This document shows positions 1 through 27,960 of a stretch of 36,764 nucleotides of DNA, one piece after another. Location of the stretch: contig CADEED010000029.1 of the NCBI GenBank assembly GCA_902826225.1, positions 1 to 36,764 on the forward strand, given 5' to 3'. Every line of letters begins with the position of its first letter. Positions within the stretch are counted from its first letter, which is position 1. The translations under genes were made by a program, and so were the position numbers. Origin of the DNA: an uncultured Pseudomonadota bacterium (GTDB taxonomy: Bacteria; Pseudomonadota; Gammaproteobacteria; Steroidobacterales; Steroidobacteraceae). Below the pieces are notes generated by a model. That model did no database searches. It was not told where the DNA came from and was given only the letters and a program-made list of their open reading frames with translations.

Positions 1-162
1 CGCTGAAAGCATCTAAGCGGGAAGCCCCCCCCAAGATTAGATCTCCCTGGGAACTTGATTCCCCTGAAGGGCCGTCGAAGACTACGACGTTGATAGGCTG
101 GGTGTGTACAGGCAGTAATGCCTTCAGCTAACCAGTACTAATTGCCCGTGAGACTTGACCAT
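1..162 (+). rRNA. rrl: 23S ribosomal RNA, 3' end (partial)
   Basis: The first 160 or so bases match the conserved 3' terminus of bacterial 23S rRNA: a segment near the start reads GCTGAAAGCATCTAAGCGGG, followed by the GGCTGGGTGTG block and the terminal GCTAACCAGTACTAAT and CCGTGAGACTTGACC segments. The gene begins before the window. The 3' end is set by comparison with the E. coli end (GCTTAACCTT) and is uncertain by a few bases. It is followed by a spacer and 5S rRNA, the usual rrn order. Confidence 0.95.
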
Positions 163-360
163 ATAACTTCAAGCAGTTTGGCTGTTGCTGGCCACGCGTT
201 TCGGCGCGCTGCTGCGAAGTGATGTCGATTGGAGCATTCACATGGTGAATGCGGCATGTCCGAGCACTGTGTTCACGTGCGACTGGGCGTCAATTCAAAA
301 AACCTTCCGGATTGGGCGTGGCGTGTCGGTAGTTAGGCCGCACGGGACGCTAAACAGAAT
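163..360 (+). other. 23S-5S internal transcribed spacer
   Basis: About 200 bases separate the 23S and 5S genes. I see no tRNA cloverleaf in it. A short open frame (185-376) crosses into the 5S gene and is not considered real. The segment presumably carries the rRNA processing stems, but I cannot fold it reliably by eye. Confidence 0.7.
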
Positions 361-478
361 TCCCTGGCGGCTATAGCGAGCGGGAACCACCCGATCCCAT
401 TTCGAACTCGGAAGTGAAAACGCTCCGCGCCGATGATAGTGTGGCAGCTGCCATGCGAGAGTAGGTCACTGCCAGGGT
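361..478 (+). rRNA. rrf: 5S ribosomal RNA
   Basis: The sequence opens with CCCTGGCGGCTATAGCG and closes with CACTGCCAGGG, which pair as the terminal helix I of 5S rRNA. Internal landmarks are conserved: CGATCCCATTTCGAACTCGG, GAAGTGAAA, GCGCCGATGATAGTGTGG and CATGCGAGAGTAGG. Length is about 118 nt, typical for bacterial 5S. It is the last gene of the rrn operon and is followed by a strong terminator. Confidence 0.96.
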
Positions 479-490
479 CCTAACGCCAAG

Positions 491-522
491 AGCCCCCGTC
501 ACGAAAGTGGCGGGGGCTTTTT
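491..522 (+). terminator. Rho-independent terminator of the rrn operon
   Basis: AGCCCCCGTCAC, a GAAA tetraloop, then GTGGCGGGGGCT form a 12-bp stem (one T-G wobble), followed directly by a TTTTT run. It lies 12 bases after the 5S gene. The next gene begins only 36 bases later. Confidence 0.93.
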
Positions 523-558
523 CATTCCCGGTGCGGGTGCGAAGATCGGCCCGCGGAC

Positions 559-1581
559 ATGAATCGAGTCACCCGACCCATACCCGAGCTGACGGGTTGC
601 AGTCCTGAACGGCTGCCGCTCGCGGACCTGCTTGCCGGCAAGCAGCCCCGCGTGCTCCGGGGTCTCGTGTCCGAATGGGGCATCACGCGCGCCGGTCTGC
701 GTTCCGATGCGGACGCCATCGATTACCTGCGTTCGTTCTACAACGGCCGGGTGATCAGCGCGTCCTTCGGCGGCCCCGAGATCGCCGGCCGGCTCTTCTA
801 CAACGAGGACTTCACCCAGCTCAATTTCGCGAGCCGGCGGACCCGGCTCGACGAAGTGCTGGAGCAGATCCAGCGGCACCTTGCGGACGAACGTCCGCCG
901 ACGATGTACGTCGGATCCACCGTCATCGACTCATGCCTGCCCGGATTCCGCCAGGACAACGACCTGGGGCTCGCGGGGCACGGCATCGATCCGCCGCCCG
1001 CGATCTGGATCGGCAACCGCACGATCGCCTCGTGTCACTACGACGCGCCGAACAATATCGCGTGCTGCGTGGTCGGCCGCCGGCGTTTCACGCTGTTTCC
1101 GCCCGACCAGATCTTCAATCTCTATCCGGGCCCGCTCGATCCGACGCCCGGCGGGCAGGCCATCAGCCTGGTCGATTTCGCGAACCCGGATCTCGAAAGG
1201 TTTCCGGCTTTCCGCACGGCACTCGAGGCTGGCATGACGGCCGAGGTCGGACCGGGCGACGCCGTCTTCATCCCGAGCATGTGGTGGCACCACGTGCAGG
1301 GGCTGTCGGCCTTCAACACGCTCGTGAACTACTGGTGGAGCACGTCTCCCGCCTACCTCCCCACGCCGATGCACGCGCTCTATCACGCGATCTGGGCAGT
1401 TCGCGACCGGCCGGAAAGCGAAAAGCGTGCCTGGCGCGACGTCTTCGAGTACTACGTTTTCGGCGACGGTGCCCGCGCGGGTGCACACCTGCCCGCCCAG
1501 GCACGCGGCCTCCTCGGGCCGATCGACGAGAATCAAGCGCGACAGATCCGCGCCATGCTCATCAACAAGCTGAATCGCTGA
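559..1581 (+). CDS. Cupin-like (JmjC/Cupin_8-type) putative Fe(II)/2-oxoglutarate oxygenase
   Basis: This 340-residue cytoplasmic protein looks like the cupin-like/JmjC fold. A candidate metal triad is visible: His160-x-Asp162 (ASCHYDAPNN) and His244 or His245 in PSMWWHHV. The GRRRFTLFPP segment (173-182) and the GDAVFIPSMWWHHV segment match the family's usual strand motifs. Members are typically hydroxylases using Fe(II) and 2-oxoglutarate; the substrate here is unknown. It is the first gene of a same-strand set: the halogenase-like gene starts 18 bases later. The ATG used has no clear ribosome-binding site and lies 36 bases after the rrn terminator, so the true start could be further in. 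No signal peptide. Similar proteins commonly sit beside tryptophan-halogenase-like genes and TonB receptors, which is the arrangement here. Fold is fairly sure, function is not. Confidence 0.82.
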   Translation: MNRVTRPIPELTGCSPERLPLADLLAGKQPRVLRGLVSEWGITRAGLRSDADAIDYLRSFYNGRVISASFGGPEIAGRLFYNEDFTQLNFASRRTRLDEVLEQIQRHLADERPPTMYVGSTVIDSCLPGFRQDNDLGLAGHGIDPPPAIWIGNRTIASCHYDAPNNIACCVVGRRRFTLFPPDQIFNLYPGPLDPTPGGQAISLVDFANPDLERFPAFRTALEAGMTAEVGPGDAVFIPSMWWHHVQGLSAFNTLVNYWWSTSPAYLPTPMHALYHAIWAVRDRPESEKRAWRDVFEYYVFGDGARAGAHLPAQARGLLGPIDENQARQIRAMLINKLNR

Positions 1582-1599
1582 ACCTCCGAGGGTCGATCC

Positions 1600-3099
1600 T
1601 TGCAGACTAGTGAAGTGAAGAAAGTGGTGATCGCGGGCGGCGGCACGGCCGGGTGGCTCGCCGCGGCCGCGCTCTCGCACCAGCTCGGCCGGATCGTGCA
1701 GATCACGCTGATCGAGTCTGAGGAGATCGGGACGATCGGCGTCGGCGAGGCGACGATCCCGCCGATCCGCGTGTTCCACAAGCTGCTGCAGGTCGACGAG
1801 CAGGAGTTCATGCGCGCGACCGCGGCCACCTTCAAGCTCGGCATCTCGTTCGAGAACTGGGCGCGCGACGGCGACCGCTACATCCACTCGTTCGGCCGCA
1901 ATGGAAAGCCGACCTGGATGTGCGAGTTCCACAATTTCTGGCTGCGCAGCCGCGAACTCGGCGTCGAGTCCGAACTCGGAGACTACTGTTTCGAGCTGCA
2001 GGCGGCGAAGGCGAACAAGTTCGCGTTCCCGAAAGAGGGCGAGATCAACTATGCGTATCACTTCGACGCCGGCCAGTATGCGAAATTCCTGCGCCGCTTC
2101 TCGGAGACGCACGGCATCCGCCGCATCGAGGGAAAGATCAGGGAAGTCAGGCAGCATGGCGAGACCGGCAACATCGAAGCGCTCGTGCTCCACTCCGGCG
2201 AGGTCGTCGCCGGCGACTTCTTCATCGACTGCACCGGCTTTCGCGGGCTCCTCATCGAGCAGACACTGAAGACGGGCTACGAGGACTGGTCGCAGTGGTT
2301 GCCCTGTGACAGCGCAGCCGCCGTGCAGACCGAACTCACCGGCCCGGCCGCCCCGTACACGCGCGCGGTGGCCCACGACAGCGGCTGGCGCTGGTGCATT
2401 CCCCTCCAGCACCGCGTCGGCAACGGCCTGGTCTACAGCAGCCGCTTCCTCTCCGACGATGCCGCGAAGGCCGCGCTCGTCGGCGCCATCGACGGCAAGA
2501 CGATCACCGAGCCGCGGGTGCTGAAGTTCCAGACCGGCCGCCGCCGCCAGGTATGGAACAAGAACTGTCTCGCGCTGGGTCTCGCCAGCGGGTTCATCGA
2601 ACCGCTCGAGTCGACGAGCATCCATCTCATGATGGTCGGTGTCACCCGGCTCCTGCACCTGTTTCCCTTCGGCGGCGTGAATCAGTCGCTTGTCGACCAG
2701 TACAACGAGGGCGCACGCGCGGAGATGGAAAAGACGAGAGATTTCGTCGTGCTCCACTACCACGCGACTCAGCGCGACGACTCGCCGTTCTGGCGGCACT
2801 GCCGGGACATGCCCATTCCCGATTCTCTCGCCCATCGCATCGAGCTGTTCCGGGAGAACGCATACGCCTTCCAGGGCGACGGCGAGATGTTCCGGGTCGA
2901 TTCGTGGGCGCAGGTGATGCTCGGCCAGCGCATCGCGCCCCGTTCCTATCATCACGGCGCCCGCATCCTGCCCGAGCAGGACTTGCGCAAATTCCTCGCG
3001 GATTTCCGCGCGTCGATAGCGCAAACCGTCGAGCGGATGCCCGTTCACCAGGACTTCGTGAATCAATACTGCCTGGCGAGCAACAGCGTCTGGAACTGA
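1600..3099 (+). CDS. Flavin-dependent tryptophan-halogenase-like protein
   Basis: 499 residues, close to the 500-550 usual for flavin-dependent tryptophan halogenases. Visible hallmarks: the FAD-binding GGGTAGW motif (13-19), Lys79 in ATFKLGISFENW (the position of the catalytic lysine in PrnA/RebH), the GWRWCIP form of the WxWxIP motif (262-268) that separates halogenases from monooxygenases, and FIEPLESTS (332-340). The active-site residues therefore appear intact. The enzyme would need reduced FAD from a partner reductase; none is encoded nearby. The start is taken as TTG at 1600 because GAGGG lies about 7 bases upstream; a GTG at 1615 has no such site. The next gene begins 4 bases after the stop, indicating an operon. 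Whether the substrate is free tryptophan is doubtful, since homologues in TonB-receptor loci are numerous and uncharacterised. Confidence 0.88.
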   Translation: MQTSEVKKVVIAGGGTAGWLAAAALSHQLGRIVQITLIESEEIGTIGVGEATIPPIRVFHKLLQVDEQEFMRATAATFKLGISFENWARDGDRYIHSFGRNGKPTWMCEFHNFWLRSRELGVESELGDYCFELQAAKANKFAFPKEGEINYAYHFDAGQYAKFLRRFSETHGIRRIEGKIREVRQHGETGNIEALVLHSGEVVAGDFFIDCTGFRGLLIEQTLKTGYEDWSQWLPCDSAAAVQTELTGPAAPYTRAVAHDSGWRWCIPLQHRVGNGLVYSSRFLSDDAAKAALVGAIDGKTITEPRVLKFQTGRRRQVWNKNCLALGLASGFIEPLESTSIHLMMVGVTRLLHLFPFGGVNQSLVDQYNEGARAEMEKTRDFVVLHYHATQRDDSPFWRHCRDMPIPDSLAHRIELFRENAYAFQGDGEMFRVDSWAQVMLGQRIAPRSYHHGARILPEQDLRKFLADFRASIAQTVERMPVHQDFVNQYCLASNSVWN

Positions 3100-3103
3100 A
3101 TCG

Positions 3104-3784
3104 ATGAAGCCCCATCCGGATCTGCGCATCCAGAAGCTCACGATCGGCCACGAGCAGGCGCCGCTCGCCGTCATCGACAATGTCGCGGCGAACGCGGACG
3201 AACTGGTCGAGATGGCGGCCGGAAAGATGTTCGGCAGCGTCGCGAGTCACTACCCCGGGGTGCGCGCGAAGGCGCCGCTCACATACCACCAGTTAGTGCT
3301 TGCCACGCTGCGCGACCTGTTCGTCGGCTATTTCGGGCTCGCGCCGTCGGTGCGCGTCACGAGCTGCCACTTCTCGGTGATGACGACGCGGCCGGAAGAC
3401 CTCGCGCCTCTGCAGACGATCCCGCACATCGATTCGCACGATAGCCGCGAGCTCGCGTTCGTACACTATCTCTTCCGGCGCGATTGTGGCGGCACGGCTT
3501 TCTACCGGCATCGCAGTACAGGATTCGAGTTCATCGACCAGGCGCGCAGGGTCCAATACTTCGCGAAGGTGGAGGAGGAACGCGAAGGCCCCCACCGCTC
3601 GCCGCAGTCCTACATCAACGGGGACACGGCGCTCTACGAGCAAATAGGCCGCCAGGACGGCGTTTTCAACCGCATGCTCGTGTACCGTCGCAATTCACTG
3701 CATTCCGGCTGCATCGGCCCCGAGTTCGTGTTCGACGCGGATCCGCGCCGCGGACGCCTCTCGCTCAACGGATTCCTCGCCTGA
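3104..3784 (+). CDS. DUF6445-like protein, possible 2-oxoglutarate/Fe(II) oxygenase fold
   Basis: 226 residues, no signal peptide or membrane segment. I recall this family as DUF6445, repeatedly found next to tryptophan-halogenase-like genes; the assignment is from memory of the sequence style and context. A pattern resembling the facial triad of prolyl-hydroxylase-like oxygenases is visible: His108-x-Asp110 (TIPHIDSHD), His200 (NSLHSGC) and an arginine at 216 or 218 (DPRRGRLSLNGFLA), with a FRRDCGGTAFYRH segment between them as in enzymes where a double-stranded beta-helix continues after HxD. This is inference, not an established function. The gene starts 4 bases after the halogenase stop, so translational coupling is likely. 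A 460-base gap with possible regulatory repeats follows before the TonB receptor. Confidence 0.7.
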   Translation: MKPHPDLRIQKLTIGHEQAPLAVIDNVAANADELVEMAAGKMFGSVASHYPGVRAKAPLTYHQLVLATLRDLFVGYFGLAPSVRVTSCHFSVMTTRPEDLAPLQTIPHIDSHDSRELAFVHYLFRRDCGGTAFYRHRSTGFEFIDQARRVQYFAKVEEEREGPHRSPQSYINGDTALYEQIGRQDGVFNRMLVYRRNSLHSGCIGPEFVFDADPRRGRLSLNGFLA

Positions 3785-4246
3785 CAACCGGCGACGGCCG
3801 GGACACGCCGCTCTGACGTTCCCGCGGAATCTGCTGCACAAGGTTGTTGTTTTTTTGGTCGCACCGCAGCGGCAGATCGTGAATGCCTGTCGTGGCATGT
3901 CCCGAGATGTCTCGTAAAGACATGATTCGCTTGGGGATAGCGAGATGTGGAGCGCGGGTCGGCAGGACGATCGAGACCCGATTTAACCGTGGACTTTCGT
4001 ACACAGGCTGCATATCCTCCGTTGCAGTCTTGAGGGGGACGCGCGATTGCGTAGGCATTGCTTCAGCCAGTCACGGGCCGGTTCTCGGTTCCGTTCGGAT
4101 CTGCGGTCTCGCAGGCCTTCCCCGTTATTTTCCAGTCGACTGACAAATCCTTGATCTGAAAATTTTCCGATCAGGGACGTGTTTGCTTTGTGAATGTTTG
4201 CGGTACCAACAACGACTAGATGTACGAGTGCGGAGGACATCTGATT
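3785..4246 (+). other. Long intergenic leader before the TonB receptor gene
   Basis: About 460 bases without a convincing gene. An open frame at 3883-4143 codes for 86 residues of no recognisable character and I do not call it. The segment has a T-rich run near 3848-3857, an inverted repeat at 3896-3924 (CATGTC/GACATG flanking CGAGATGTCTCG), a 22-bp palindrome at 4152-4173, and a good ribosome-binding site (GGAGGA, 4232-4237) before the receptor's ATG. It is visibly more AT-rich near 4141-4200 than the coding regions, as expected for a promoter and leader. Confidence 0.6.
4152..4173. promoter_or_regulatory. 22-bp near-perfect palindrome, candidate operator
   Basis: TGATCTGAAAATTTTCCGATCA reads the same on both strands at 20 of 22 positions, with a perfect GAAAATTTTC core. 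It lies 73 bases upstream of the receptor ATG. A dimeric regulator site is the simplest reading; an RNA hairpin is possible but would have no loop at the perfect core. The cognate regulator is not evident in the window. Confidence 0.5.
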
Positions 4247-7200
4247 ATGAAATTCAACCGAAAGACATTGCCTATTGCATCGAAGGCACTGTTCACCATC
4301 GTGGGTGGAGCAGTGCTGGTGAATCCCGTGTTCGCGCAGGAACAAGGGAGTGAAGAAATCGAGGAAGTGATCGTCACCGGTCTGCGCGGAAGCTTGAAGG
4401 CTTCGCTCGAGACCAAGCGTGACGCACTGGGCGTCGTCGATGCGATCAACGCCGAGGACATCGGTAAATTCCCGGACACCAACCTGTCGGAAGCGCTCCA
4501 GCGCATCACGGGTCTGTCCATCGACCGTCGCAACGGCGAAGGCGCCACGGTGACGGCGCGAGGCTTCGGTCCGCAGTTCAACATGGTGACGTTGAACGGC
4601 CGCCAGATGCCGACGGCCGACACCTTCGGCGACGGCGGCGCGGTCGGCGGCGGTGCCGCCGGCAACACGCGTTCGTTCAACTTCGCGAATCTCGCGGCCG
4701 AAGCGATCAGCGCGGTCGAGGTGTACAAGACCGGCCGTGCCGACATCGCCACCGGTGGTATCGGTGCGTCGATCAACGTACGTACCGCGCGTCCGCTCGA
4801 CAGCGACGGGCTCGTACTCAATCTCGGCGCCAAGATGGTGAACGACACCACGAATCGCGAAGGTGATGACATCACCCCCGAGATCTCGGGCATCTTCAGC
4901 TGGGCCACCGACAACAAGATGTTCGGCATCGGCTTGTCGGCCAGCTACCAGAAGCGCGACAGCGGTTCCTCATCGTCGACGGTCAACGACTGGCAGATCC
5001 GCCCGTGGAACTCGACGCTGAGCGCCATCCAGGGCCAGGTCCCGCTCTACGTCAACAACAACGACACGCCCTACGACACCGCTGACGATTTCATCGACGC
5101 GGAGATCATCAACGCGCCGGCGAACGGTCAGCTGTACGGCATCCCGAACGACATCCGTTATGCGTTCTCGGATTCCGAGCGTGAGCGCATCAACACGCAG
5201 TTCACGGTGCAGTACCAGCCGGTCGACGGCCTCACGTTCACGCACGACATCACGTTGGTCGAGCAGAATCTGAAGGAAGACCGTGGTGAGCAGACGATCT
5301 GGCTGCAGCGTAACGGCTTCGACTTGATCGAGTTCGACACCGGCAACGAAGTGGCGACGCCCGTTCGTCTCCACGAGTACACCGGCGCCGGCAAGGACTT
5401 CGGTTACGAGCAGCAGCACCGCGAACAGCGCAACACGCTCATGTCGATGGGCTTCAACGCCGACTGGAACGTCACCGAGCAGTTCAACCTGAACTTCGAC
5501 TTCCATCGTTCGCGCGCACGCAGCCTGCCCGATGACGGAGTCACGGGCGGCAGCCAGACGGCGTTCAGCCTCGCGGGCAAGGTGCCCAGCACCTGTCTCG
5601 AGTTCTACGGTGCGAACCCGATGGGTGGTGCCCCCGCGTGCCGCAACCAGTCGGGCTTCTGGACGCAGGAGTTCCAGTTCAACGGAGGCCTGCCGATCGC
5701 GGCCCGCACCTTGTACCCGGATCGCCTCACGGCGCTGGCGGGTGGTGCCGGCCAGGACGACTACACGTTTGACCAGTCGAGCCTGGGTTCGCAGATCCTG
5801 CGCATTTCCTATCAGGAGCAGCGCACGAACGTGAACCAGGCGCGCATCGACGGCGAGTTCGAGTTCGAGGGTGGCAGCACCTTCGGCTTCGGCGTCGAGA
5901 CCCGCGCCATGGAGACGCATCAGCGCTCCTCCGGCTCGAACCTGACGATGGGCGACTGGGGTGTCGGCGACACCGGCACCGTGCCGGACATGGTCGCGCT
6001 GCTCACGCCGTTCAGCCTCACGGGTGCATTCGACGACTTCAACCCGGTCGGTGCGCCGACGGGTGGCTGGAAGGGGAATGCCAACGTGCTCGGCCAGTGG
6101 GCGCTGGATCACGGCTACGTGAACTGGACGGAGGCTTCCGCTCCGGACGGTCAGCTGCGTTACAACCCGGGATTCAACACCGACAGCGTGATCGAGGAAG
6201 ACACCCAGGCGGTCTACGCGCAGTTCGCGTGGAAGTTCGAGGTCGGCACTATGCCGGCGAATCTCGTGGTCGGCGCGCGTTACGAGGAGACGACGGTCAA
6301 GGCGACAAACAGCCTGCTGGTCCCGACGGCGCTGCTCTGGCAGGACGACAACGACTTCCAGGTCGTACGTCCCACCACGGCGACGCTGGTGGAAGGCGAC
6401 GGCGACTACAACAACCTGCTGCCGAACCTCGACTTCGACATCGGCATCACGGACTCGCTCAAGGCGCGCTTCTCGTACAGCAAGACGATTGCCCGCGCGG
6501 GCTACGGCACGCTGGCCGCGGGCCAGAATCCCGGCACGCCGGGTGGTTCGACGATCAACGGCTTCACGCCGGGTGGCAACCAGAACAACCCGGGCATCCT
6601 GCCGCTCGAGTCCGATAACTTCGATCTGTCCTTCGAGTACTACTTCTCGGATACGGGTTACGTGTCCGTGGGTGCGTTCCAGAAGAACGTCGAAAACTTC
6701 ATCGGCAACTCGGTGGTTCCGCTCGAGCTGTATGGCATCCGCAACCAGACGGGTGGCCCGCGCGCCCAGACGGCGCTGGCCTATCTGCAGGCCAACGGCT
6801 TCGGCACGAACGACTCGGCGCTGTTCACCGCCACCGCGATGCTGGCCAACCCCGGCACCTTCGTGGATGCGATGGGCACGTCGTGGACCGGCGGCCTGGC
6901 GAACTACAACGGCTCGGAGGCGCAGCACATCGCCTTCGCGACGCGGTACGACCTGCTGCCGACGGCCGAGGATCCTCTCTACACGTTCAACATCAACACG
7001 CCGACGAACAACCAGGAAGCCAAGATCCATGGTTACGAGTTCGGCGGTCAGTACTTCTTCGGAGACTCTGGCTTCGGCGTACTGGCGAACTACACGATCG
7101 TGAAGGGTGACATCGGCTACGACGTGGCGAGCGATCCGAACCAGAACCAGTTCGCGCTGACGGGTCTGTCCGACTCCGCGAACGCGGTGCTGATGTTCGA

Positions 7201-7477
7201 GAAGTTCGGCATCTCGGCGCGTCTCGCCTACAACTGGCGCGACGAGTTCCTGTCGAACATCAACCAGGGTGGCTTCAGGAACCCGATCTTCGTCGAAGCG
7301 TACGACCAGATCGACCTGTCGGTCGGCTATGACATCAGCGACAACCTCGCGGTGTCGTTCGAGGCCATCAACCTGACGGGCGAGGACATCCGCTGGCACG
7401 GCCGTTCGGCCCTGCAGATGTGGCGTCTGGAAGACCAGGGTGCGCGTTACGCCCTCGGTGCCCGTTACAAGTTCTGA
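4247..7477 (+). CDS. TonB-dependent receptor (outer membrane, oligosaccharide type)
   Basis: 1076 residues. An N-terminal signal peptide (basic MKFNRK, hydrophobic stretch, cleavage likely after PVFA) is followed by a TonB-box-like segment EEVIVTGLRGS, a plug domain with EDIGKFPDTNLSEAL and VTARGFGPQFNMVTLNGRQ, then a long series of alternating beta strands ending in ALGARYKF with a terminal aromatic residue, as in 22-strand barrels. The N-terminal style resembles the large carbohydrate-type receptors of Xanthomonas and Caulobacter. It would import an unidentified ligand into the periplasm using TonB energy. The start ATG at 4247 is chosen for the signal peptide and the GGAGGA site 9 bases before it; an upstream in-frame ATG at 4220 is less likely. 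A hairpin and the SapC gene follow. Ligand unknown; the neighbours do not include a glycoside hydrolase. Confidence 0.93.
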   Translation: MKFNRKTLPIASKALFTIVGGAVLVNPVFAQEQGSEEIEEVIVTGLRGSLKASLETKRDALGVVDAINAEDIGKFPDTNLSEALQRITGLSIDRRNGEGATVTARGFGPQFNMVTLNGRQMPTADTFGDGGAVGGGAAGNTRSFNFANLAAEAISAVEVYKTGRADIATGGIGASINVRTARPLDSDGLVLNLGAKMVNDTTNREGDDITPEISGIFSWATDNKMFGIGLSASYQKRDSGSSSSTVNDWQIRPWNSTLSAIQGQVPLYVNNNDTPYDTADDFIDAEIINAPANGQLYGIPNDIRYAFSDSERERINTQFTVQYQPVDGLTFTHDITLVEQNLKEDRGEQTIWLQRNGFDLIEFDTGNEVATPVRLHEYTGAGKDFGYEQQHREQRNTLMSMGFNADWNVTEQFNLNFDFHRSRARSLPDDGVTGGSQTAFSLAGKVPSTCLEFYGANPMGGAPACRNQSGFWTQEFQFNGGLPIAARTLYPDRLTALAGGAGQDDYTFDQSSLGSQILRISYQEQRTNVNQARIDGEFEFEGGSTFGFGVETRAMETHQRSSGSNLTMGDWGVGDTGTVPDMVALLTPFSLTGAFDDFNPVGAPTGGWKGNANVLGQWALDHGYVNWTEASAPDGQLRYNPGFNTDSVIEEDTQAVYAQFAWKFEVGTMPANLVVGARYEETTVKATNSLLVPTALLWQDDNDFQVVRPTTATLVEGDGDYNNLLPNLDFDIGITDSLKARFSYSKTIARAGYGTLAAGQNPGTPGGSTINGFTPGGNQNNPGILPLESDNFDLSFEYYFSDTGYVSVGAFQKNVENFIGNSVVPLELYGIRNQTGGPRAQTALAYLQANGFGTNDSALFTATAMLANPGTFVDAMGTSWTGGLANYNGSEAQHIAFATRYDLLPTAEDPLYTFNINTPTNNQEAKIHGYEFGGQYFFGDSGFGVLANYTIVKGDIGYDVASDPNQNQFALTGLSDSANAVLMFEKFGISARLAYNWRDEFLSNINQGGFRNPIFVEAYDQIDLSVGYDISDNLAVSFEAINLTGEDIRWHGRSALQMWRLEDQGARYALGARYKF

Positions 7478-7518
7478 GAATCCAAGTTCAAAGAACGCGT
7501 AAAGGGTGATGAAATGGG

Positions 7519-7550
7519 AAGGCCGCTACGCGAGTAGCGGCCTTTCCTTT
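7519..7550 (+). terminator. Terminator or attenuating hairpin between receptor and SapC genes
   Basis: AAGGCCGCTAC, GCGA loop, GTAGCGGCCTT form a perfect 11-bp stem with a GNRA tetraloop, followed by TCCTTTT, an imperfect T tract. It lies 41 bases after the receptor stop and ends just before the SapC ribosome-binding site (GAGAGG). It may give partial termination, making SapC less abundant than the receptor. Confidence 0.75.
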
Positions 7551-7562
7551 TGAGAGGTCGCG

Positions 7563-8297
7563 ATGCCCAGACACGAGATGGTCAACAACGTCACGCACAA
7601 GAACCTGCGCGTGATCACCCGCCACGGCCCGGAGTTCGGCGACAACGTCGGAACGGTCATGATCGTGCCGACCGAATTCGGCGACATCCAGCGCGAGTAC
7701 CCGATCTTCTTCCGCCAGGATACACAGGGCGAATTCATGTCCGTCGCGCTGCTTGGCTTCGCGAAGGACGAAAACCTCTTCCTCGAGGGAGATCGCTGGG
7801 ATGCGAACTACGTCCCCGCGATGCTCGCGCGCGGACCGTTCCTCATCGGCTTCCAGCAGCGCGAGGAAGGTGGCGACGTGCGGCGGGAACCCGTCATCCA
7901 CATCGACATGGAGAGCCCGCGCGTCAGTCAGACCGAGGGTGAGCCGGCGTTTCTCGATCTCGGAGGCAACAGCCCGTACCTCAACCGCATCGCGGGCATC
8001 CTGAACGGGATCAACCAGGGGATCGACGTGAGCAAGGCGATGTTCGCCGCGTTCACCGCGGCAGGTCTCATCGAGCCGCTTAAGGTCGAGGTCAAGTTCG
8101 CCGAGGAGCAGTACGACCTCGTCGGGTTGCAGACGATCAATCGCGAGAAGCTCGCCAACCTCGACGCACAGACTTTGCACTCACTGCATCGTTCGGGATT
8201 CCTGCAAGGCGCATTCCTCGTGGTGAACTCGCTGCAGAACGTGCAGCGGCTCGTGGATCGCAAGCAGCGGCGGAAGGCCCGCCAGTCTGCCGCATAG
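7563..8297 (+). CDS. SapC family protein
   Basis: 244 residues, no signal peptide. The sequence has the SapC (PF07277) character: an N-terminal NVTHKNLRV segment, then YPIFFRQDTQGEF, ALLGFAKDENLF, and a RGPFLIGF block, with FAEEQYDLVGLQTINREKL near the C-terminus. SapC was named for an S-layer-associated gene in Campylobacter, but its biochemical role is not known; in proteobacteria it recurs beside TonB receptors and halogenase-like genes, as here. The ATG at 7563 follows GAGAGG by about 6 bases; an internal ATG at 7578 would shorten it by 5 residues. It ends 9 bases from a convergent gene. Confidence 0.85.
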   Translation: MPRHEMVNNVTHKNLRVITRHGPEFGDNVGTVMIVPTEFGDIQREYPIFFRQDTQGEFMSVALLGFAKDENLFLEGDRWDANYVPAMLARGPFLIGFQQREEGGDVRREPVIHIDMESPRVSQTEGEPAFLDLGGNSPYLNRIAGILNGINQGIDVSKAMFAAFTAAGLIEPLKVEVKFAEEQYDLVGLQTINREKLANLDAQTLHSLHRSGFLQGAFLVVNSLQNVQRLVDRKQRRKARQSAA

Positions 8298-8306
8298 CCT
8301 CGAGGA

Positions 8307-8711
8307 TCAGACCGACAGCGCGTCGTACACGACGACCTTCTGCCAGAGGTGCGAGCAGTCCGCGACGAATTTCTGGTGCACCGGGTGATCCTGGTAGATC
8401 TTCTGCCCGGCGACATCGTCGAAGAAGAGGATTTCGGACGCGCTGTAGCTGTTGTCCACGACGTCCCGTTTCTCCGTGCTCGCCGGTACGCCGAAGTGCG
8501 CGCCGCGCACCGACTCGATCCGGGTGAGCGTCTTCAGGCCCTCGAGCAGGCGCGCAAGATCTTCTTTCGATTCCGGATTCTTGAGCCAGAAGAACACGTG
8601 GTGGACGAGTTTGGGATAGGTCACGGACGATGCTCCGGCGGGTTCGGGGATCAGGATGCTGGCGCCAGCGGCGACGGCCCCGGCGATTAACGTTCTGCGA
8701 GTCGTGCTCAT
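8307..8711 (-). CDS. Dabb-domain protein with Tat-like signal peptide
   Basis: 134 residues. The N-terminus [17 protein letters not shown] has a twin arginine followed by a hydrophobic stretch, then PAGA, suggesting Tat-type export. The rest (from about residue 31) fits the small stress-responsive alpha/beta-barrel (Dabb) domain: [13 protein letters not shown] at its start, then [30 protein letters not shown] and [18 protein letters not shown]. Cytoplasmic Dabb proteins are small dimeric barrels with varied roles; no reaction can be assigned. Its ATG overlaps the stop of the uxuB-like gene (ATGA), so it is the last gene of the long minus-strand operon. A role connected to periplasmic sugar acid handling is conceivable but only inferred. 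Confidence 0.82.
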
Positions 8712-10171
8712 GCCGACAACTCCGCGGTGAGGGCCGATTTCGGCGCGGCTAGGTTTTCGTAGGAAGCTTCGAGGGCGCGGCGGAAGCGCTCGTCACCGAG
8801 CAGGTCGGGCGGCAGCACGGCCTCGCAGGCCGCGAACCGCTCGATGTCCGCGCGGGCCTCGCCCGTGCAGGCCTTGCCGATGTCCGCGAGGCGCGCGGCA
8901 TCTGGATCGACGATCGCAACGCCGGCTTTCGCCTGCCGGACGACGAAACGCATCCAGGCCGCCAGCGGGACCACCAGACGATGCACCGGCCGCCCGGCGC
9001 GCAGCGCCTCGCCGATCGTGACGACGATGCGAACGGGCAGTTTTTTCGAGCCGTCCCACGCGATCTGCGAGAGCAGGTGCCGGATCCCCGGGTTCCGGAA
9101 TCGCGCGAGTACGGCGGAAATGTACTGCTCCGCGTCGAAGCCCGGCGTCGATCCCAGGCTCGGTCCCAGATCCCGCTTCATCAGGCGCTCGACGAAACTC
9201 GCGAGCTGTTCGTCACGCATCGCATCCGCGACCGTCTCGTGTCCGCGCAGCAGGCCGACGTACGTGAGCGTCGAGTGCGGCCCATTGACGAGGCGGAGCT
9301 TCGCTCGGTCGTACACGCCGACATCCTTCGCGAGCGTGACGCCGACGGATGGCCAGTCCGCCTCGCGCATCGCCGGCAGGTCCTCGATGACCCATTGCGT
9401 GAACGGCTCGCGCTGGATCGGCCACCGGTCGTCGAGGCCCGTGAGCTCGCGCGTGCGTTCTCGAAGCCGGTCGTCGGTGGCCGGCGTGATGCTGTCGACC
9501 ATCGTCCTCGGGCTTGCGACCTCGGCCTCGATCCACTGCGCGAGCGCGGCATCGGTCGCGCGCGCGAAAGTCACCAGGGCGCGTTTGAGTACCGCGCCGT
9601 TGTCCGGCAGGTTGTCGCAGCTCAGCACCGAGTACGGCGGAATTCCCTGCGCGCGACGGCGTTTCAGGCCTTCGACGAGCCAGCCGATGGTGCTGCGCGG
9701 CGCATCGGGATTCGCGAGGTCGTGGGCGATGTCCGCATTGGAGGCATCGAGTTCGTTGCGGGCGTCGAGGCAATAACCCTTCTCCGTGACGGTCATGGAG
9801 ACGAGGCGCGTGTCGCGCGCTGCGAGCCGCGCGAACGCCCGCGCGGCGTCGGTGGGACCCACGAGCAGTTCGCGGATCGCGCCGATCACGCGCGCGCGCG
9901 GTGCTGCACCGAGTTCGACGAGCGTGTAGAGACCCTGCTGCGGATCGATCGCATCGCGCAGCGTCGTGCTCTTCAACGACAGCGCGGAGATCGCCCAGCG
10001 CTTGTCGGCGTGCAGCAGCGTATCCGCGTAGTACGCCTGGTGCGCGCGATGGAACGCCCCCGGGCCGATGTGCACGATGCCGAACTTCGTCGCGCCACGA
10101 TCGTAAGTGGGCAGGATCGCGCCCGAGCGGGCGGAATGCAGGCTCGCCTCGGTGAGGCGCGGCAGGATCAT
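8708..10171 (-). CDS. uxuB: D-mannonate oxidoreductase (fructuronate reductase)
   Basis: 487 residues, matching the mannitol dehydrogenase family of long-chain dehydrogenases. Visible motifs: the NAD-binding [15 protein letters not shown] (31-45), TEKGYCLD (129-136), SCDNLPDNG (184-192) and the family catalytic motif K-x4-N-x-x-H as [10 protein letters not shown] (Lys291, Asn296, His299). The enzyme interconverts D-fructuronate and D-mannonate with NAD(H). Mannitol or tagaturonate reductase activity is possible for this family, but the window also has uronate isomerase, mannonate dehydratase, KDG kinase and KDPG aldolase, which makes fructuronate the likely substrate. It sits 15 bases downstream of xylD in the xylose operon, away from the other uronate genes, so a single promoter would supply both routes. 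The Dabb gene overlaps its end by 4 bases. Confidence 0.9.
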
Positions 10172-10186
10172 CTCGATTCCTTGTCG

Positions 10187-11974
10187 CTAGTGATTGTGGC
10201 GCGGAGTCTTGGCAGCCACACCGCGGTATTTGACCGCCATCTCCATGACGGCGCCAGTGTCGAGCTGGCCGACCGTGTTGCGATAGAGCTCCTGCCAAGG
10301 GGTCGCGCTTTCCGGCACCGCCGGCGGACCTGCCTGGCGACGACGCGCGATCTCCTCGTCGGACACCAGCATGTCGCAGGTTCCCCTGGCGAGATCGATG
10401 CGTATGCGGTCCCCGGTGCGCAGCCACGCGAGCCCGCCACCCGCGGCACTCTCCGGTGAGCAGTTGAGGATGGACGGACTGTCGGACGTGCCCGACTGGC
10501 GGCCGTCACCGAGCGTCGGCAGGCTCGTCACCCCCCGTTTGATCAGTGCGTCCGGCGGCTGCATGTTCACGACCTCGGCGGAGCCGGGCCAGCCGAGCGG
10601 ACCCGAACTGCGCATCACGAGGATCGTGTTCTCGTCGATGTTCAGGGCAGGATCGTTGATGCGCGCGTGGTAGTCGGTGGAGCCGTCGAACACGGCCGCA
10701 TTGCATTCGAACACGTCGCCGTTGGCGAGATAGCGCTGGCGGAATTCTGGGGAAATCACGCTCGTCTTCATGATTCCGAAGTCGAACAGGTTGCCCCTCA
10801 GCACGAGGAAGCCGGCTTTCTCCTGCAAGGGATTTTCGAACGACGTGATGACGTCGGCATCCACGGAATGCCGGCCCGCGACGTTCTCGGCCAGCGAGCG
10901 GCCAGTCACTGTCAGCGCCTCGCCGTCGACCTTGCCCGCGCGAATGAGCTCGGTGAGCACCGCCGGGACGCCGCCCGCGCGATGGAAGCGTTCGCCCAGG
11001 TATTTGCCGGCGGGCTGCAGGTTCACGATGAGCGGCAGGTCGCGGCCATATTTCATCCAGTCGTCGGGCGTGATCTCGATGCCCGCGTGGCGCGCCATCG
11101 CCACCAGGTGGGGCTGGGCGTTCGTCGAGCCGCCAATGGCCGCAATGGCCGCGATTGCGTTGAGGAACGATTGCCGCGTGAGGATCTTCGACGGCCGCAG
11201 ATCCTCGAAGGCCATCTCGACGATGCGCCGGCCGGTCTCGTAGGAGATCTGGCCGCGTTCGCGGTACGGCGCGGGGATGGCCGCGCAGCCCGGCAGCGAG
11301 AGGCCGAGCACCTCGGCGACCGCGTTCATCGTCGACGCGGTGCCCATCGTGTTGCAGTGCCCGAGCGACGGCGCGGATGCCGCCGCAGCCGCGAGGAACT
11401 GCTTCTCGTTGATCTGGCCGGCGGCGAGCTTGCGGCGTGAGCGCCAGATGACCGTGCCCGAGCCCACGAGATCGCCCTCGTGCCAGCCGTCGAGCATCGG
11501 TCCGCCCGACAGCACGATCGCGGGGATGTCGACGGTCGACGCGGCCATGATCTGCGCCGGTGTCGTCTTGTCGCAGCCGGTCGTCAGAACCACGGCGTCG
11601 AGCGGATAGCCGTGCAGGATCTCGACCAGACCCAGGTACGCGAGATTGCGGTCGAGCGCCGCGGTCGGACGTCGGCAGTTCTCGAAGATCGGGTGCAACG
11701 GGAATTCCATCGGCACGCCGCCCGCGTCGCGAATGCCTTCGCGCACACGTTTCACCGTGTCGAGGTGAATGCGGTTGCAGGGCGTGAGATCGCCGCCGGT
11801 CTGCGCGATGCCGATGATGGGCTTGCCCGACAGCAGCTCGTCGGCCGTCAGGCCGTAGTTCATGAAGCGCTCGAGGTAGAGCGCCACCATGTCGAGGTGC
11901 CGCGGATCGTCGAACCAGTCGCGCGAGCGGAAGCGGCGTCGGGGTTGGATCTGCGTGGTCGAGTCAGAGGCCAT
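10187..11974 (-). CDS. xylD: D-xylonate dehydratase (IlvD/Edd family)
   Basis: 595 residues, the length of the pentonate dehydratases of the IlvD/Edd family. Three cysteines that normally bind the [2Fe-2S] cluster are present: Cys66 (LTPCNRIH), Cys134 (TTGCDKTTPA) and Cys207 (LGHCNTMGTAST). IGGSTNAQPHL and the C-terminal DGRQSGTSDSPSILN follow. The opening segment (RSRDWFDDP, ALYLERFMNYGL) closely resembles the Caulobacter xylonate dehydratase as I recall it. The enzyme converts D-xylonate to 2-keto-3-deoxy-D-xylonate, the third step of the Weimberg pathway. L-arabonate is the main alternative substrate, but the adjacent xylB/xylX-type genes favour xylonate. It overlaps the end of xylC by 11 bases. 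Confidence 0.91.
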   Translation of the reverse strand: MASDSTTQIQPRRRFRSRDWFDDPRHLDMVALYLERFMNYGLTADELLSGKPIIGIAQTGGDLTPCNRIHLDTVKRVREGIRDAGGVPMEFPLHPIFENCRRPTAALDRNLAYLGLVEILHGYPLDAVVLTTGCDKTTPAQIMAASTVDIPAIVLSGGPMLDGWHEGDLVGSGTVIWRSRRKLAAGQINEKQFLAAAAASAPSLGHCNTMGTASTMNAVAEVLGLSLPGCAAIPAPYRERGQISYETGRRIVEMAFEDLRPSKILTRQSFLNAIAAIAAIGGSTNAQPHLVAMARHAGIEITPDDWMKYGRDLPLIVNLQPAGKYLGERFHRAGGVPAVLTELIRAGKVDGEALTVTGRSLAENVAGRHSVDADVITSFENPLQEKAGFLVLRGNLFDFGIMKTSVISPEFRQRYLANGDVFECNAAVFDGSTDYHARINDPALNIDENTILVMRSSGPLGWPGSAEVVNMQPPDALIKRGVTSLPTLGDGRQSGTSDSPSILNCSPESAAGGGLAWLRTGDRIRIDLARGTCDMLVSDEEIARRRQAGPPAVPESATPWQELYRNTVGQLDTGAVMEMAVKYRGVAAKTPRHNH

Positions 11975-16227: not shown

Positions 16228-17754
16228 TCAGGCCGGCGACTTCTTCCATAGTTTCTGCATGTTCTCGAGCGACATGCCCTTGCTCTCCGGGACGAACTTC
16301 CAGACGAACAGGGCCGACAGCACGCTGAACCCGCCGTACAGCCAGTAGGCGAAACCGTGGTTGAACGCGGCATTCAGCGCCGTGTTGCCGTCCATGATGT
16401 TGAAGGTCACCGTCACCACCCAGTTCATGAACCATTGCGCGGCCACCGCGATCGCCATGGCCTGGTTGCGGATGGAATTCGGGAAGATCTCGGCCAGCAT
16501 CACCCAGACGACCGGTCCCCACGACAGCGAGAACCCGGCGATGTAGATGCAAACCACGACGACGGCCGGCGTGCCGACCGACGTGCCGTAGATATTGAAC
16601 AGGAATCCCAGCGCCGTCATCGAGATCGCCATGATGATCGAGCCCAGGATCAGGAGGGGCTTGCGGCCCCAGCGGTCGACCGTCACCGTCGCCACGAGCG
16701 TGAAGACGACCAGGACGATGCCGATGATCACCGTCTGCGCGAAGGCCGCGTTTCCGACGAAGCCCATGTTGGTGAACATCTGCGTCCCGTAATACAGGAC
16801 GGCGTTGATGCCGACGAGCTGCTGGAAGACCGACAGCAGGATGCCCACCACGATGACGAGGCCGCCATAGGAGAAGAGATGGCCGGCCGTTTCCTTGAGC
16901 GACGCATCGATCTCGGCGAGCACGATCTTCGCCTCGGACTCGTTCGCGAGTTTCTTGAGGACTTCGTTGGCCTTCTCCGGCTTGCCCTTGAGCATGAGGC
17001 CGCGAGGTGTCTCCGGCACGAAGAACAGCAGCACCACGAACAGACCCGCGGGGATCGCGCACGACGCCAGCATGTAGCGCCAGCCGATGTCGTGCAGCCA
17101 GTTCACGTCGCCGCCGAAACTCGCGATGCCGGCGTTGACGAAGTACACGAGCGAGATGCCGGACACGATCGCGATCTGCTGGTACGTCACGAGCGCCCCG
17201 CGGCGCGACGGCGGCGCGATCTCGGCGATGTACATGGGCGCGAGCATCGAGGCGAGCCCGATTCCCATGCCACCGAAGAGGCGATGACCGATGAAGTTCG
17301 TGATGATGTCACCGAACCTCAGATAGGGCGCGTCTTCGAAGAACAGGTTGAGGAACCAGAGCAGCGCGTTGATGAGCGGCGTCAGCACCGAGCCCAGGTG
17401 GCCGAGCGTCGACTCCGGCCACGCGGAGCCCAGCGACGATACGAAGAACAACGCGCCGGCGACGATGAGCCCGCCGCGCCGTCCGAGAAGATGCGCGACG
17501 ACACCGCCGATCGCGCCGCCGATGAGGCAGCCCCACAGCGCGCCGCCGATCGTGAATCCTTCGAGGCTGAGCCGCGCCCCCTCGGCCAGGTTCATCGGTG
17601 CGACGAAGTTCTGCTTGATCGAATCGGTTGCTCCAGAGATGACGGCCGTGTCGTAACCGAAGAGCAGACCGCCCAGCGCGGCGATGATCGTGAGAGTGAC
17701 GAGAAGGCCGGTGTGTTGCGAGCTGGCGGCGCCGGAAACGGGAGTCTGAGACAC
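16228..17754 (-). CDS. xylE: D-xylose:H+ symporter, sugar porter family (MFS)
   Basis: 508 residues, 12 predicted membrane segments. Sugar-porter signatures: FGYDTAVISG (32-41), GRRGGL (91-96), PETPRGL (247-253), DRWGRKPLLI and the C-terminal FVPESKG. The QQLVGINAVLYYG motif (311-323) carries Gln311, Gln312 and Asn317, equivalent to the substrate-contacting QQ...N set of E. coli XylE. It would move xylose across the inner membrane with protons. The start is GTG at 17754, with AGGGGA about 6 bases before it; no ATG fits better. It is the first gene of the eight-gene minus-strand operon; a candidate promoter and operator lie 80-108 bases upstream. Another monosaccharide substrate cannot be excluded from sequence alone. 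Confidence 0.9.
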   Translation of the reverse strand: MSQTPVSGAASSQHTGLLVTLTIIAALGGLLFGYDTAVISGATDSIKQNFVAPMNLAEGARLSLEGFTIGGALWGCLIGGAIGGVVAHLLGRRGGLIVAGALFFVSSLGSAWPESTLGHLGSVLTPLINALLWFLNLFFEDAPYLRFGDIITNFIGHRLFGGMGIGLASMLAPMYIAEIAPPSRRGALVTYQQIAIVSGISLVYFVNAGIASFGGDVNWLHDIGWRYMLASCAIPAGLFVVLLFFVPETPRGLMLKGKPEKANEVLKKLANESEAKIVLAEIDASLKETAGHLFSYGGLVIVVGILLSVFQQLVGINAVLYYGTQMFTNMGFVGNAAFAQTVIIGIVLVVFTLVATVTVDRWGRKPLLILGSIIMAISMTALGFLFNIYGTSVGTPAVVVVCIYIAGFSLSWGPVVWVMLAEIFPNSIRNQAMAIAVAAQWFMNWVVTVTFNIMDGNTALNAAFNHGFAYWLYGGFSVLSALFVWKFVPESKGMSLENMQKLWKKSPA

Positions 17755-17833: not shown

Positions 17834-17862
17834 AGCGTAGTGATAGCGGTATCAGATAGCAA
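17834..17862 (-). promoter_or_regulatory. Candidate xyl operon promoter with operator in the spacer
   Basis: On the minus strand TTGCTA (17857-17862) and TACGCT (17834-17839) are separated by exactly 17 bases. The spacer contains TGATACCGCTATCA (17841-17854), a palindrome with perfect 5-bp arms that resembles LacI-family operators. The -10 match is weak (three of six). It would direct transcription of the transporter gene (start 17754). The same geometry is found at 19027-19055, which strengthens the call. Confidence 0.5.
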
Positions 17863-17887: not shown

Positions 17888-18997
17888 TCAGGACTTGCGT
17901 GGTGGCGCGACCGAATCGCGCTTGACCAATTCGTAGGGCACGAGGTGGTCGACCGCCTGGTGAGAGTGCCGGTCCTTCGCACGGCGGATCTTGTGCAGCA
18001 GCAGGTTGATCGCCGCTTCGGCCATCGCGGCGATCGGCTGCCGGACGGTGGTGAGCTCGGGCCACACCGTCGTCGCGATCGGCGTGTCGTCGAAACCGAC
18101 CACGGAGAGGTCACCGGGGACATCGAGCTGGCGCCGGTGCGCGACCGAGATTGCGGCCGCGGCCATGTCGTCGTTGCTCGCGAAGATGGCGGTCGGCACG
18201 CGCTTGCGAGCGAGCAGCTTCTCGGTGGCCTCGAGTCCCGACTTGTAGGTGAAGAAACCCTGGATCACGAGCGCCGGGTCGACTTCGAGATCGGCCTCGG
18301 CCATCGCGGCCTCGAATCCTTCGAGGCGCTGCTGGCTCGCGGTCTGTGTCGGTTGTCCCTTGATGAACGCGATGCGCGTGTGACCCGCGGCGATGAGGTG
18401 CTGGGTCATCTCCCGCGCCGCGTTGAAATCGTCGATGCGCACGCACGACACGTCCTCGCGCGCCTGGCCGGTCGCCAGCGCGACGGCCGGCACGCCTTCC
18501 GCGGCGAACGCGGCGGCGATGGCCCGCGACTCGCACAGCGGCGGCGGCAGGATCACGCCTGCGATGCCTTCCGAGAGCTTCTGCGCCGCGGCCTTCTCCG
18601 CCGCCGGCTTGAGATTGTCCCAGCGATCGAGCACTAGCTGAGCCGCGGTGCGATGCGAGCCGTCGAGCGCGCCCACGAGCATCTCCGATAGATAGGAGGC
18701 GCTGGGGTTCGAGTAGATCAGCGCGATGCGCGTGTCGCGCGCGCCGGCGAGCAGCCGTGCCGCGGGATTCGGGCGGTAGTTGAGCGCACGTACGGCCTGC
18801 ATGACGATTTCGCGGGTCGTATCGCGCACGTTGCTCTCGCCGTTGATCACGCGCGAGACCGTCATCGGCGATACGTTTGCGTGCCGGGCGACTTCGTGGA
18901 TCGTGACGGCGCTGCCGCGACGGCGGCCGCTCTTCTCACCCAACCGCGGGACGTCGCCGCCGCGTTCACCTGATTCGCTCAATCGATCTCCCGGCAA
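17888..18997 (-). CDS. xylR: LacI-family transcriptional repressor of xylose and glucuronoxylan genes
   Basis: 369 residues. The LacI helix-turn-helix is clear: AVTIHEVARHANVSPMTVSR followed by VINGESNVRD and the hinge NYRPNPAARLLA, then a periplasmic-binding-protein-like effector domain (IALIYSNPSASYL, ILPPPLCESRA, RIAFIKGQPTQTASQQRL, AIFASNDDMAAAAI, DLSVVGFDDTPIA). The start is TTG at 18997, with GAGG 8 bases before it and an in-frame stop just upstream; later TTG codons (18982, 18943) are alternatives. It is on the minus strand between two candidate operators that match each other, one for the xyl operon and one before the GH67 gene. The symbol is used by analogy with Caulobacter XylR, a LacI-type repressor, and not the AraC-type XylR of E. 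coli. The inducer is unknown, probably xylose or an aldouronic acid. Confidence 0.87.
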   Translation of the reverse strand: MPGDRLSESGERGGDVPRLGEKSGRRRGSAVTIHEVARHANVSPMTVSRVINGESNVRDTTREIVMQAVRALNYRPNPAARLLAGARDTRIALIYSNPSASYLSEMLVGALDGSHRTAAQLVLDRWDNLKPAAEKAAAQKLSEGIAGVILPPPLCESRAIAAAFAAEGVPAVALATGQAREDVSCVRIDDFNAAREMTQHLIAAGHTRIAFIKGQPTQTASQQRLEGFEAAMAEADLEVDPALVIQGFFTYKSGLEATEKLLARKRVPTAIFASNDDMAAAAISVAHRRQLDVPGDLSVVGFDDTPIATTVWPELTTVRQPIAAMAEAAINLLLHKIRRAKDRHSHQAVDHLVPYELVKRDSVAPPRKS

Positions 18998-19026: not shown

Positions 19027-19055
19027 ATGACTCGCGTTAGCGATAACAATAGATT
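19027..19055 (+). promoter_or_regulatory. Candidate GH67 gene promoter with LacI-type operator
   Basis: ATGACT (19027-19032) and TAGATT (19050-19055) are separated by 17 bases. The spacer holds CGTTAGCGATAACA (19035-19048), a GTTA/TAAC palindrome around GCGA. Aligned with the site at 17841-17854 the two share G(A/T)TAGCGNTA(A/T)CA in the plus-strand orientation. Both operators begin two bases after the -35 hexamer and end one base before the -10. The site also lies 38 bases before the LacI-type gene start on the other strand, so autoregulation is possible. Confidence 0.55.
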
Positions 19056-23893: not shown

Positions 23894-23977
23894 TGCTCCG
23901 TCAGGAATTAAGAATTAGTGTCGCCCGCCGCGACGGAAAAATCCGCTCAAGGTCAGACGGGCCCGAATACTACCAAT

Positions 23978-27864: not shown

Positions 27865-27960
27865 TTGTTACCGTCACCGTGAGGCGCGGTGGGGGCGGTG
27901 CCGACTTTGCCGTCTTGGTCCCCGCGTCTACGCGTTTATCCATGTGTGTGGGGGGCTGCG

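Follow-up and report, generated by a model that had tools for sequence, protein, structure and literature searches.

Here we describe a five-gene unit in which three predicted oxidative enzymes and a SapC-family protein accompany a TonB-dependent receptor. It lies in a 36,764-nucleotide stretch of DNA (hereafter the window; contig CADEED010000029.1, assembly GCA_902826225.1) from an uncultured bacterium of the Steroidobacteraceae. That the five genes form a real recurring unit is well supported, and their surroundings predict a role in xylan use. We tentatively propose that the enzymes carry out hydroxylation and halogenation on protein side chains, the most likely substrate being the receptor of the unit while it is still awaiting export. 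All five open reading frames (ORFs) lie on the + strand between positions 559 and 8297, as in a preliminary description of this DNA, and each matches its Pfam family: a JmjC/FIH-like Cupin_8 gene (559..1581, 340 aa; PF13621, 4.7e-69), a tryptophan-halogenase-family flavoprotein with a TTG start (1600..3099, 499 aa; PF04820, 6.3e-196), a DUF6445 gene (3104..3784, 226 aa; 2.7e-74), the receptor (4220..7477) and the SapC-family gene (7563..8297, 244 aa; PF07277, 1.3e-65). ORF coordinates also bear out the short gaps described earlier, 18 bases between Cupin_8 and halogenase and 4 bases between halogenase and DUF6445.

We scanned public genomes with a DUF6445 alignment and kept the best 80 of 295 confirmed relatives, each with up to 10 kb of flanking sequence on either side. 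These loci are the closest relatives rather than a random draw; their partner genes were called by six-frame profile searches. The preliminary description had proposed a survey of co-occurrence as its test, and the result is above chance: at 73 of the 80 loci all five genes occur on one strand in the order receptor (T), SapC (S), Cupin_8 (C), halogenase (H) and DUF6445 (D). The exact T-S-C-H-D pattern accounts for 62 loci, extended or broken forms for 13 and DUF6445 alone for 5. Counted singly, the receptor is present at 75 loci, halogenase and Cupin_8 at 74 each and SapC at 73. Median gaps are 165 (T–S), 5 (S–C), 39.5 (C–H) and 7 bases (H–D).

As background we used 274 genomes drawn evenly from the same class, in which SapC was found in 40 and DUF6445 in 6. 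PF04820 matched in 100 of these genomes (E up to 1e-3) and strong halogenases (E < 1e-100) in 12, with at most five candidates scored per genome. SapC was present in 7 of the 12 strong-halogenase genomes versus 33 of the 262 others (Fisher p 4e-4), and DUF6445 in 4 of the 12 versus 2 of the 262 (p 3e-5). The earlier statement that such neighbours recur in Caulobacterales did not hold: no carrier from this order is named among the 80 DUF6445-anchored loci, and the control genome of Caulobacter vibrioides contains matches to SapC, Cupin_8 and halogenase and none to DUF6445.

The genomic setting predicts that the unit belongs to xylan use and forms a xylan-regulated receptor operon, and both the neighbouring genes and an operator-like motif support the plant-polymer link suggested earlier. 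The window is a xylan locus by its enzymes, encoding a GH67 alpha-glucuronidase (19080..21224, + strand; PF07488, 5.8e-154), a CE15-like glucuronyl esterase (21240..22583, +; PF22244, 1.1e-28) and the glucuronate isomerase UxaC (23918..25384, +; PF02614, 2.1e-71). The palindrome TGNTANCGNTANCA contains the xyl-box given in the available text of PMC7748154 and PMC10380989. Allowing up to one mismatch, it occurs four times in the window, versus 0.19 expected. One site (4195..4208, one mismatch) precedes the likely receptor start (4247) by 38 bases; a perfect site (17841..17854) lies upstream of an XylE-like sugar porter gene (16228..17754, −; PF00083; NF007484, 2.2e-176, 587 bits versus a cut-off of 608); and a third (19035..19048, one mismatch) separates GH67 from the gene of a LacI-family regulator, a XylR candidate (17888..18997, −). 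The fourth, at 23746, is inside a coding gene.

The same motif recurs before the receptor in other genomes. Within 400 bases upstream of the receptor at 74 loci, 35 carry a perfect site and 39 a site with up to one mismatch, the other 35 having none; 14,800 windows drawn at random from these loci gave 1.5% and 2.7%, respectively. As the loci share ancestry, a binomial test overstates this enrichment. No xyl-box was found in the tested loci of Rheinheimera, Gilvimarinus and Paraglaciecola. Hemicellulase-type families, counted within the fetched stretches of the 73 five-gene loci, comprised GH3 (28), SASA esterase (22), GH43 (10) and GH67 (8), GH3 and SASA not being xylan-specific; 35 loci contain at least one of them. 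A hemicellulase-type gene or a xyl-box-like operator is found at 61 of the 73 loci and neither at 12. Of the 40 genomes from which the first 40 loci come, 30 encode GH67, the ten others being Rheinheimera or other gammaproteobacteria, and in 6 of these 30 it shares a fetched stretch with the DUF6445 gene, versus 0.14 expected. In these species the motif is probably the XylR operator, and the receptor ligand would be a xylo-oligosaccharide. According to the available text of PMC1790865, the receptor XCC2828 is induced by xylose and xylan and has a conserved palindrome upstream, and its Caulobacter counterpart CC0999 is induced by xylose.

The window receptor is of the TIGR01782 (TonB-Xanth-Caul) type, scoring 686 bits against a cut-off of 310, with barrel and plug matches at 1e-21 and 2.7e-17. 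Its likely start is 4247 rather than 4220, judging by eye from the fit of a signal peptide, also seen in hydropathy, and a GGAGG box; residue numbers below count from 4220. We mapped 68 halogenase ORFs in nine genomes, namely the source genome and eight chosen for carrying the operon or DUF6445, the latter with 57 halogenase matches. A same-strand receptor lies within 5.5 kb of 50 of the 68, versus about 2 to 7 expected if a total of 160 (the TIGR01782 count) to 600 receptors is assumed. The sets beside receptors vary: halogenases number one to three, and SapC, Cupin_8 and DUF6445 may be present or missing. At 40 loci of same-type receptors picked away from halogenases, SapC or Cupin_8 was found at only 2 (flanks of ~3 to 4 kb).

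On a tree of 77 receptors, 35 linked to halogenases and 42 unlinked, the state of carrying SapC, Cupin_8 or DUF6445 requires 6 changes (shuffled mean 17.2; none of 500 shufflings as low), and linked versus unlinked requires 12 (shuffled mean 25.6). Of 38 linked receptors, one shorter than 700 aa and those of loci L010, L011 and L174 were dropped, L010 being of the CarboxypepD_reg type and the other two of another type by eye. Since receptors accompanied by these genes cluster on the tree, enzyme set and receptor type go hand in hand. A second TIGR01782 receptor of the window (27889..30873, +), which adjoins no halogenase there, was also placed on the tree.

Several variant sets were seen along the way. 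The source genome has a second one (L009:5837-13332), with Cupin_8 and DUF6445 divergent from LacI, TonB receptor and halogenase genes and with no SapC. At L019:6218-8477 a Cupin_8 gene adjoins a GH10 xylanase, with no halogenase in the stretch, and at L222:3144-7969, in a Rheinheimera genome (L043), receptor, SapC and Cupin_8 stand together in a stretch that likewise contains no halogenase.

The Cupin_8 protein is predicted to be an Fe(II)/2-oxoglutarate (2OG) oxygenase nearest to protein hydroxylases. Its best sequence matches in the PDB are FIH (1.4e-22), followed by JMJD5 and other JmjC proteins. It shares with FIH and JMJD5 the HxD...H iron site, with H160 and D162 in 74 of 75 aligned rows (one gap) and H244 in all 75; the catalytic roles of conserved residues, here as in DUF6445 and the halogenase, are those we take these families to have. 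The match to FIH is confined mainly to residues 149-265, and by eye R175 aligns with what we presume to be the 2OG-binding lysine of FIH.

DUF6445 is likewise a predicted Fe(II)/2OG oxygenase. In its structure model a double-stranded beta-helix carries an HxD...H site and a 2OG-binding arginine, the features of that superfamily, and the model thereby lends substance to the earlier view of DUF6445 as an oxidative enzyme. Among 81 rows, H108 and D110 are kept in 81, H200 in 80 and R218 in 79. No sequence match in the PDB was found at E up to 1. Among the 50 fold matches listed by VIA, many being repeat entries of the same proteins, 39 are protein hydroxylases (OGFOD1, lysyl hydroxylases, Tpa1, P4H and PHD2); small-molecule enzymes appear at similar Z and lead in Foldseek.

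The flavoprotein belongs to PF04820 by its profile match, GxGxxG motif, Lys79, WxWxI(P) and the glutamate of EPLES, and the signature stretches reported earlier are intact: Lys79, GWRWCIP from residue 262 and FIEPLESTS from residue 332. Across 75 aligned halogenases, K79, W263, W265, I267 and E334/E337 are kept in every row, and the proline of WxWxIP in only 50. The closest PDB sequences, nearly full-length, are Xcc4156 (6y1w, 2.1e-178), then 9luq and BrvH (6frl). As reported in the available text of PMC7336383, Xcc4156 and BrvH do not accept free tryptophan and their native substrates are unknown; their active site is open, and a peptide substrate was proposed for halogenases of this type. 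The 4.0-Mb draft source genome holds 12 strong halogenase matches (16 rows in total), several beside TonB receptors. For one of its halogenases (L016:5117-6646), the alignment shows no catalytic lysine. In another cluster (C65, L013:7820-13484), a receptor end is followed by three tandem halogenases and a PF13640 2OG oxygenase, relatives of which were not found at E 1e-3 in those other fetched loci that were searched.

SapC scores 221.5 bits against a PF07277 cut-off of 28.9, and no signal-like stretch was found in the window copy. Residues H12, E38, W79 and D115 are invariant in all 74 operon copies; across 44 SapC proteins the invariant columns include H12, E38, W79, P85 and S223. Its predicted structure (m451a22935816, pLDDT 96.7) returned no fold match in the PDB. 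The family extends well beyond the operon: of 30 SapC loci fetched from the class, 26 have none of the other four genes within about 1.5 kb. Being abundant in such contexts and missing from many halogenase–receptor sets, SapC is not a constant partner.

The preliminary description inferred a modification system for an imported ligand or for a protein or peptide residue. That the genes belong together is borne out; the two kinds of target are not separated, and indirect evidence leans towards a protein. We favour a protein substrate over ligand tailoring because Cupin_8 by sequence, and DUF6445 by one of the two aligners, resemble protein hydroxylases, and because relatives of the halogenase spare free tryptophan and have had a peptide substrate proposed (PMC7336383, available text). 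A signal-like stretch is absent from nearly all rows of the three enzymes, suggesting that they stay in the cytoplasm. We also considered a peptide precursor and compared 727 small ORFs (18–110 aa) from three stretches, before the receptor, in the receptor–SapC gap and after DUF6445. No cross-genus family emerged; the largest shared set comprises only 9 loci, upstream of the receptor in eight Rheinheimera and one other gammaproteobacterium (L051), leaving no general precursor in the stretches searched. With no precursor gene found, and with the receptor a partner in most variants, the receptor becomes the candidate target.

In this scheme, the operon would be switched on in the xylan response, and Cupin_8, halogenase and DUF6445 would act on the receptor in the cytoplasm before its export, while SapC would hold the unfolded receptor or bring the enzymes to it. 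The benefit would be a tuning of ligand binding or receptor stability when xylan serves as food. We consider this possible, somewhat short of probable, and the choice of the receptor over SapC or another protein is its least certain part. A fuller version is doubtful. In it, bacteria would edit the nutrient receptors of their outer membrane by oxidation: upon xylan sensing, modular sets of a brominase of peptidyl-tryptophan and a pair of protein hydroxylases, escorted to their work by SapC, would mark the receptor in the cytoplasm, and the sets would differ between receptor clades.

A number of observations weigh against the receptor as target. A ligand target would account for the tie between receptor clade and enzyme set just as well. 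One receptor closely related to that of the window (L225, 68% identical) is free of enzymes for about 3.3 kb around it, and 18 of the 68 halogenase ORFs lack a receptor on their own strand within 5.5 kb, several of these lying at contig ends or by an opposite-strand receptor. At 5 of the 80 loci (L024, L029, L030, L064 and L069), DUF6445 occurs with none of its four partners within the flanks fetched; all five loci are from Steroidobacter or Peristeroidobacter. For DUF6445, 9 of the 50 VIA matches listed are small-molecule enzymes (PasI, PolD, SnoN, HygX, ColD and OkaE), and uncharacterised or small-molecule enzymes make up nearly all of the 50 Foldseek matches listed, from which only 7zsc, a collagen prolyl hydroxylase, and 3h8o, an enzyme of DNA repair, stand apart. 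The preliminary description saw no partner flavin reductase, and this extends to the 93.94% complete draft genome for PF01613, other reductase families not having been searched; PF01613 is present in 13 of 14 control genomes.

Nor does any receptor residue mark a target. A first comparison of 74 operon receptors with 12 others gave 42 operon-specific positions. W361, the best-placed tryptophan, which 75 of the 76 operon receptors share (the other row has a gap), occurs in 27 of 35 linked versus 10 of 42 unlinked receptors, but ranks 25th of 941 after tree pairing; we rejected it on account of this rank, and its column aligns poorly. With the tree controlled for, none of the 941 features stands out as separating linked from unlinked receptors.

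The window itself raises a further difficulty. Its gene order, C-H-D-T-S, is permuted relative to the usual T-S-C-H-D, and the block sits behind rRNA genes that go unmentioned in the preliminary description: the 3' end of a 23S rRNA at the contig start, which forms the upstream boundary (1..162, +; RF02541, 3.8e-40), and a 5S rRNA (363..477, +; RF00001, 1.9e-18). The Cupin_8 gene starts 81 bases 3' of the 5S rRNA, with an inverted repeat or hairpin (488-521) between them, and a simple consensus scan of 340 to 4300, in itself weak evidence, found no promoter-like site. For these reasons, co-expression of C-H-D with the receptor appears doubtful in this genome. Transcription from the rRNA operon and silence may both be envisaged. 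The order could have arisen from a tandem copy whose outer parts were lost.

Among other explanations, the enzymes may act on the imported ligand or its companions, such as xylan-bound hydroxycinnamates, other aromatics or an aromatic toxin, in detoxification or to prime breakdown. That the operon sits among glucuronoxylan genes, a CE15-like esterase of the window included, fits this, and the enzyme set tracks the type of receptor, perhaps with it the type of ligand. The Foldseek matches of DUF6445 are headed by 2OG oxygenases of small molecules, which also occur among those of VIA, and related Xcc halogenases brominate indole derivatives (PMC7336383, available text). We nevertheless find this explanation rather unlikely. 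The enzymes look cytoplasmic, and no inner-membrane transporter is found among the five genes, an MFS_2 gene lying near 10 of the 73 five-gene loci. Cupin_8 is nearest to protein hydroxylases, and sugars are, as a matter of general chemistry, poor halogenase substrates. Recurring neighbours also bear on the question, within limits: Pfam named 6 of 44 cluster representatives, many of the remaining clusters being wrong-frame ORFs from high-GC genomes, and none of the six named families belongs to aromatic catabolism. None of the six is a biosynthetic scaffold enzyme either, which speaks against the set producing a small halogenated compound, be it a signal or an antibiotic, that is exported or that the receptor senses. 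Secondary metabolism is the usual setting of flavin halogenases, and the 12 strong matches in the source genome would suit such a role; the lack of any small ORF conserved across genera and the receptor-linked halogenases in nine genomes make it improbable.

A protein other than the receptor could instead be modified, for example SapC, a xylanase destined for secretion or a component of the TonB system, the receptor being merely co-regulated. Both oxygenases have protein hydroxylases among their nearest matches, and SapC is present at 73 of 80 loci with its four invariant residues; its absence from many halogenase–receptor sets and the 26 of 30 class loci at which it stands apart render this unlikely. 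Finally, the flavoprotein might not halogenate in the cell, and would then hydroxylate a tryptophan residue or only use oxygen, as a monooxygenase on a kept fold. The missing PF01613 reductase would be in keeping with this, as would a weak match to QhpG, a flavin monooxygenase that we take to act on a tryptophan of an exported peptide. That match reaches only 29 bits against a cut-off of 240, and the halogenase residues are kept in all 75 rows, so we regard a loss of halogenation as most improbable.

Among the other genes of the window, a mannitol dehydrogenase family gene (8708..10171, −; PF01232/PF08125) is a candidate for the uronate pathway, and an ILVD/EDD dehydratase gene (10187..11974, −; PF00920) for a sugar-acid dehydratase. 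The window further encodes an SMP-30 lactonase, an SDR protein, an aldehyde dehydrogenase, LacI and GntR regulators and a PfkB kinase.

Titles and abstracts of mainly open-access literature yielded no account of the five-gene operon and no function for DUF6445; the receptor-locus kind and the enzyme families are already known. We know of no other system that modifies outer-membrane transporters by oxidation and halogenation, so this one would be the first if the receptor is the target. For BrvH/Xcc4156-type halogenases, whose native substrates are given as unknown in the available text of PMC7336383, the operon narrows the choice of substrates to a few and points to a condition for growth. Because the halogenase is found there beside one type of receptor, a pair of oxygenases and an operator-like site responsive to sugar, the substrate question becomes testable by mass spectrometry.

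The closest known counterparts are the CUT loci of XCC2828 in Xanthomonas campestris and CC0999 in Caulobacter (PMC1790865), which resemble the window in having a receptor in a xylan locus and a xyl-box-like operator, the window also encoding a LacI-family regulator. Halogenase and SapC go unmentioned in the available main text of that paper. Similarly, TonB is absent from the available text of PMC8269204, and that of PMC7336383 presents BrvH and Xcc4156 with neither TonB nor a gene cluster, whereas here an enzyme of their type belongs to a five-gene receptor operon.

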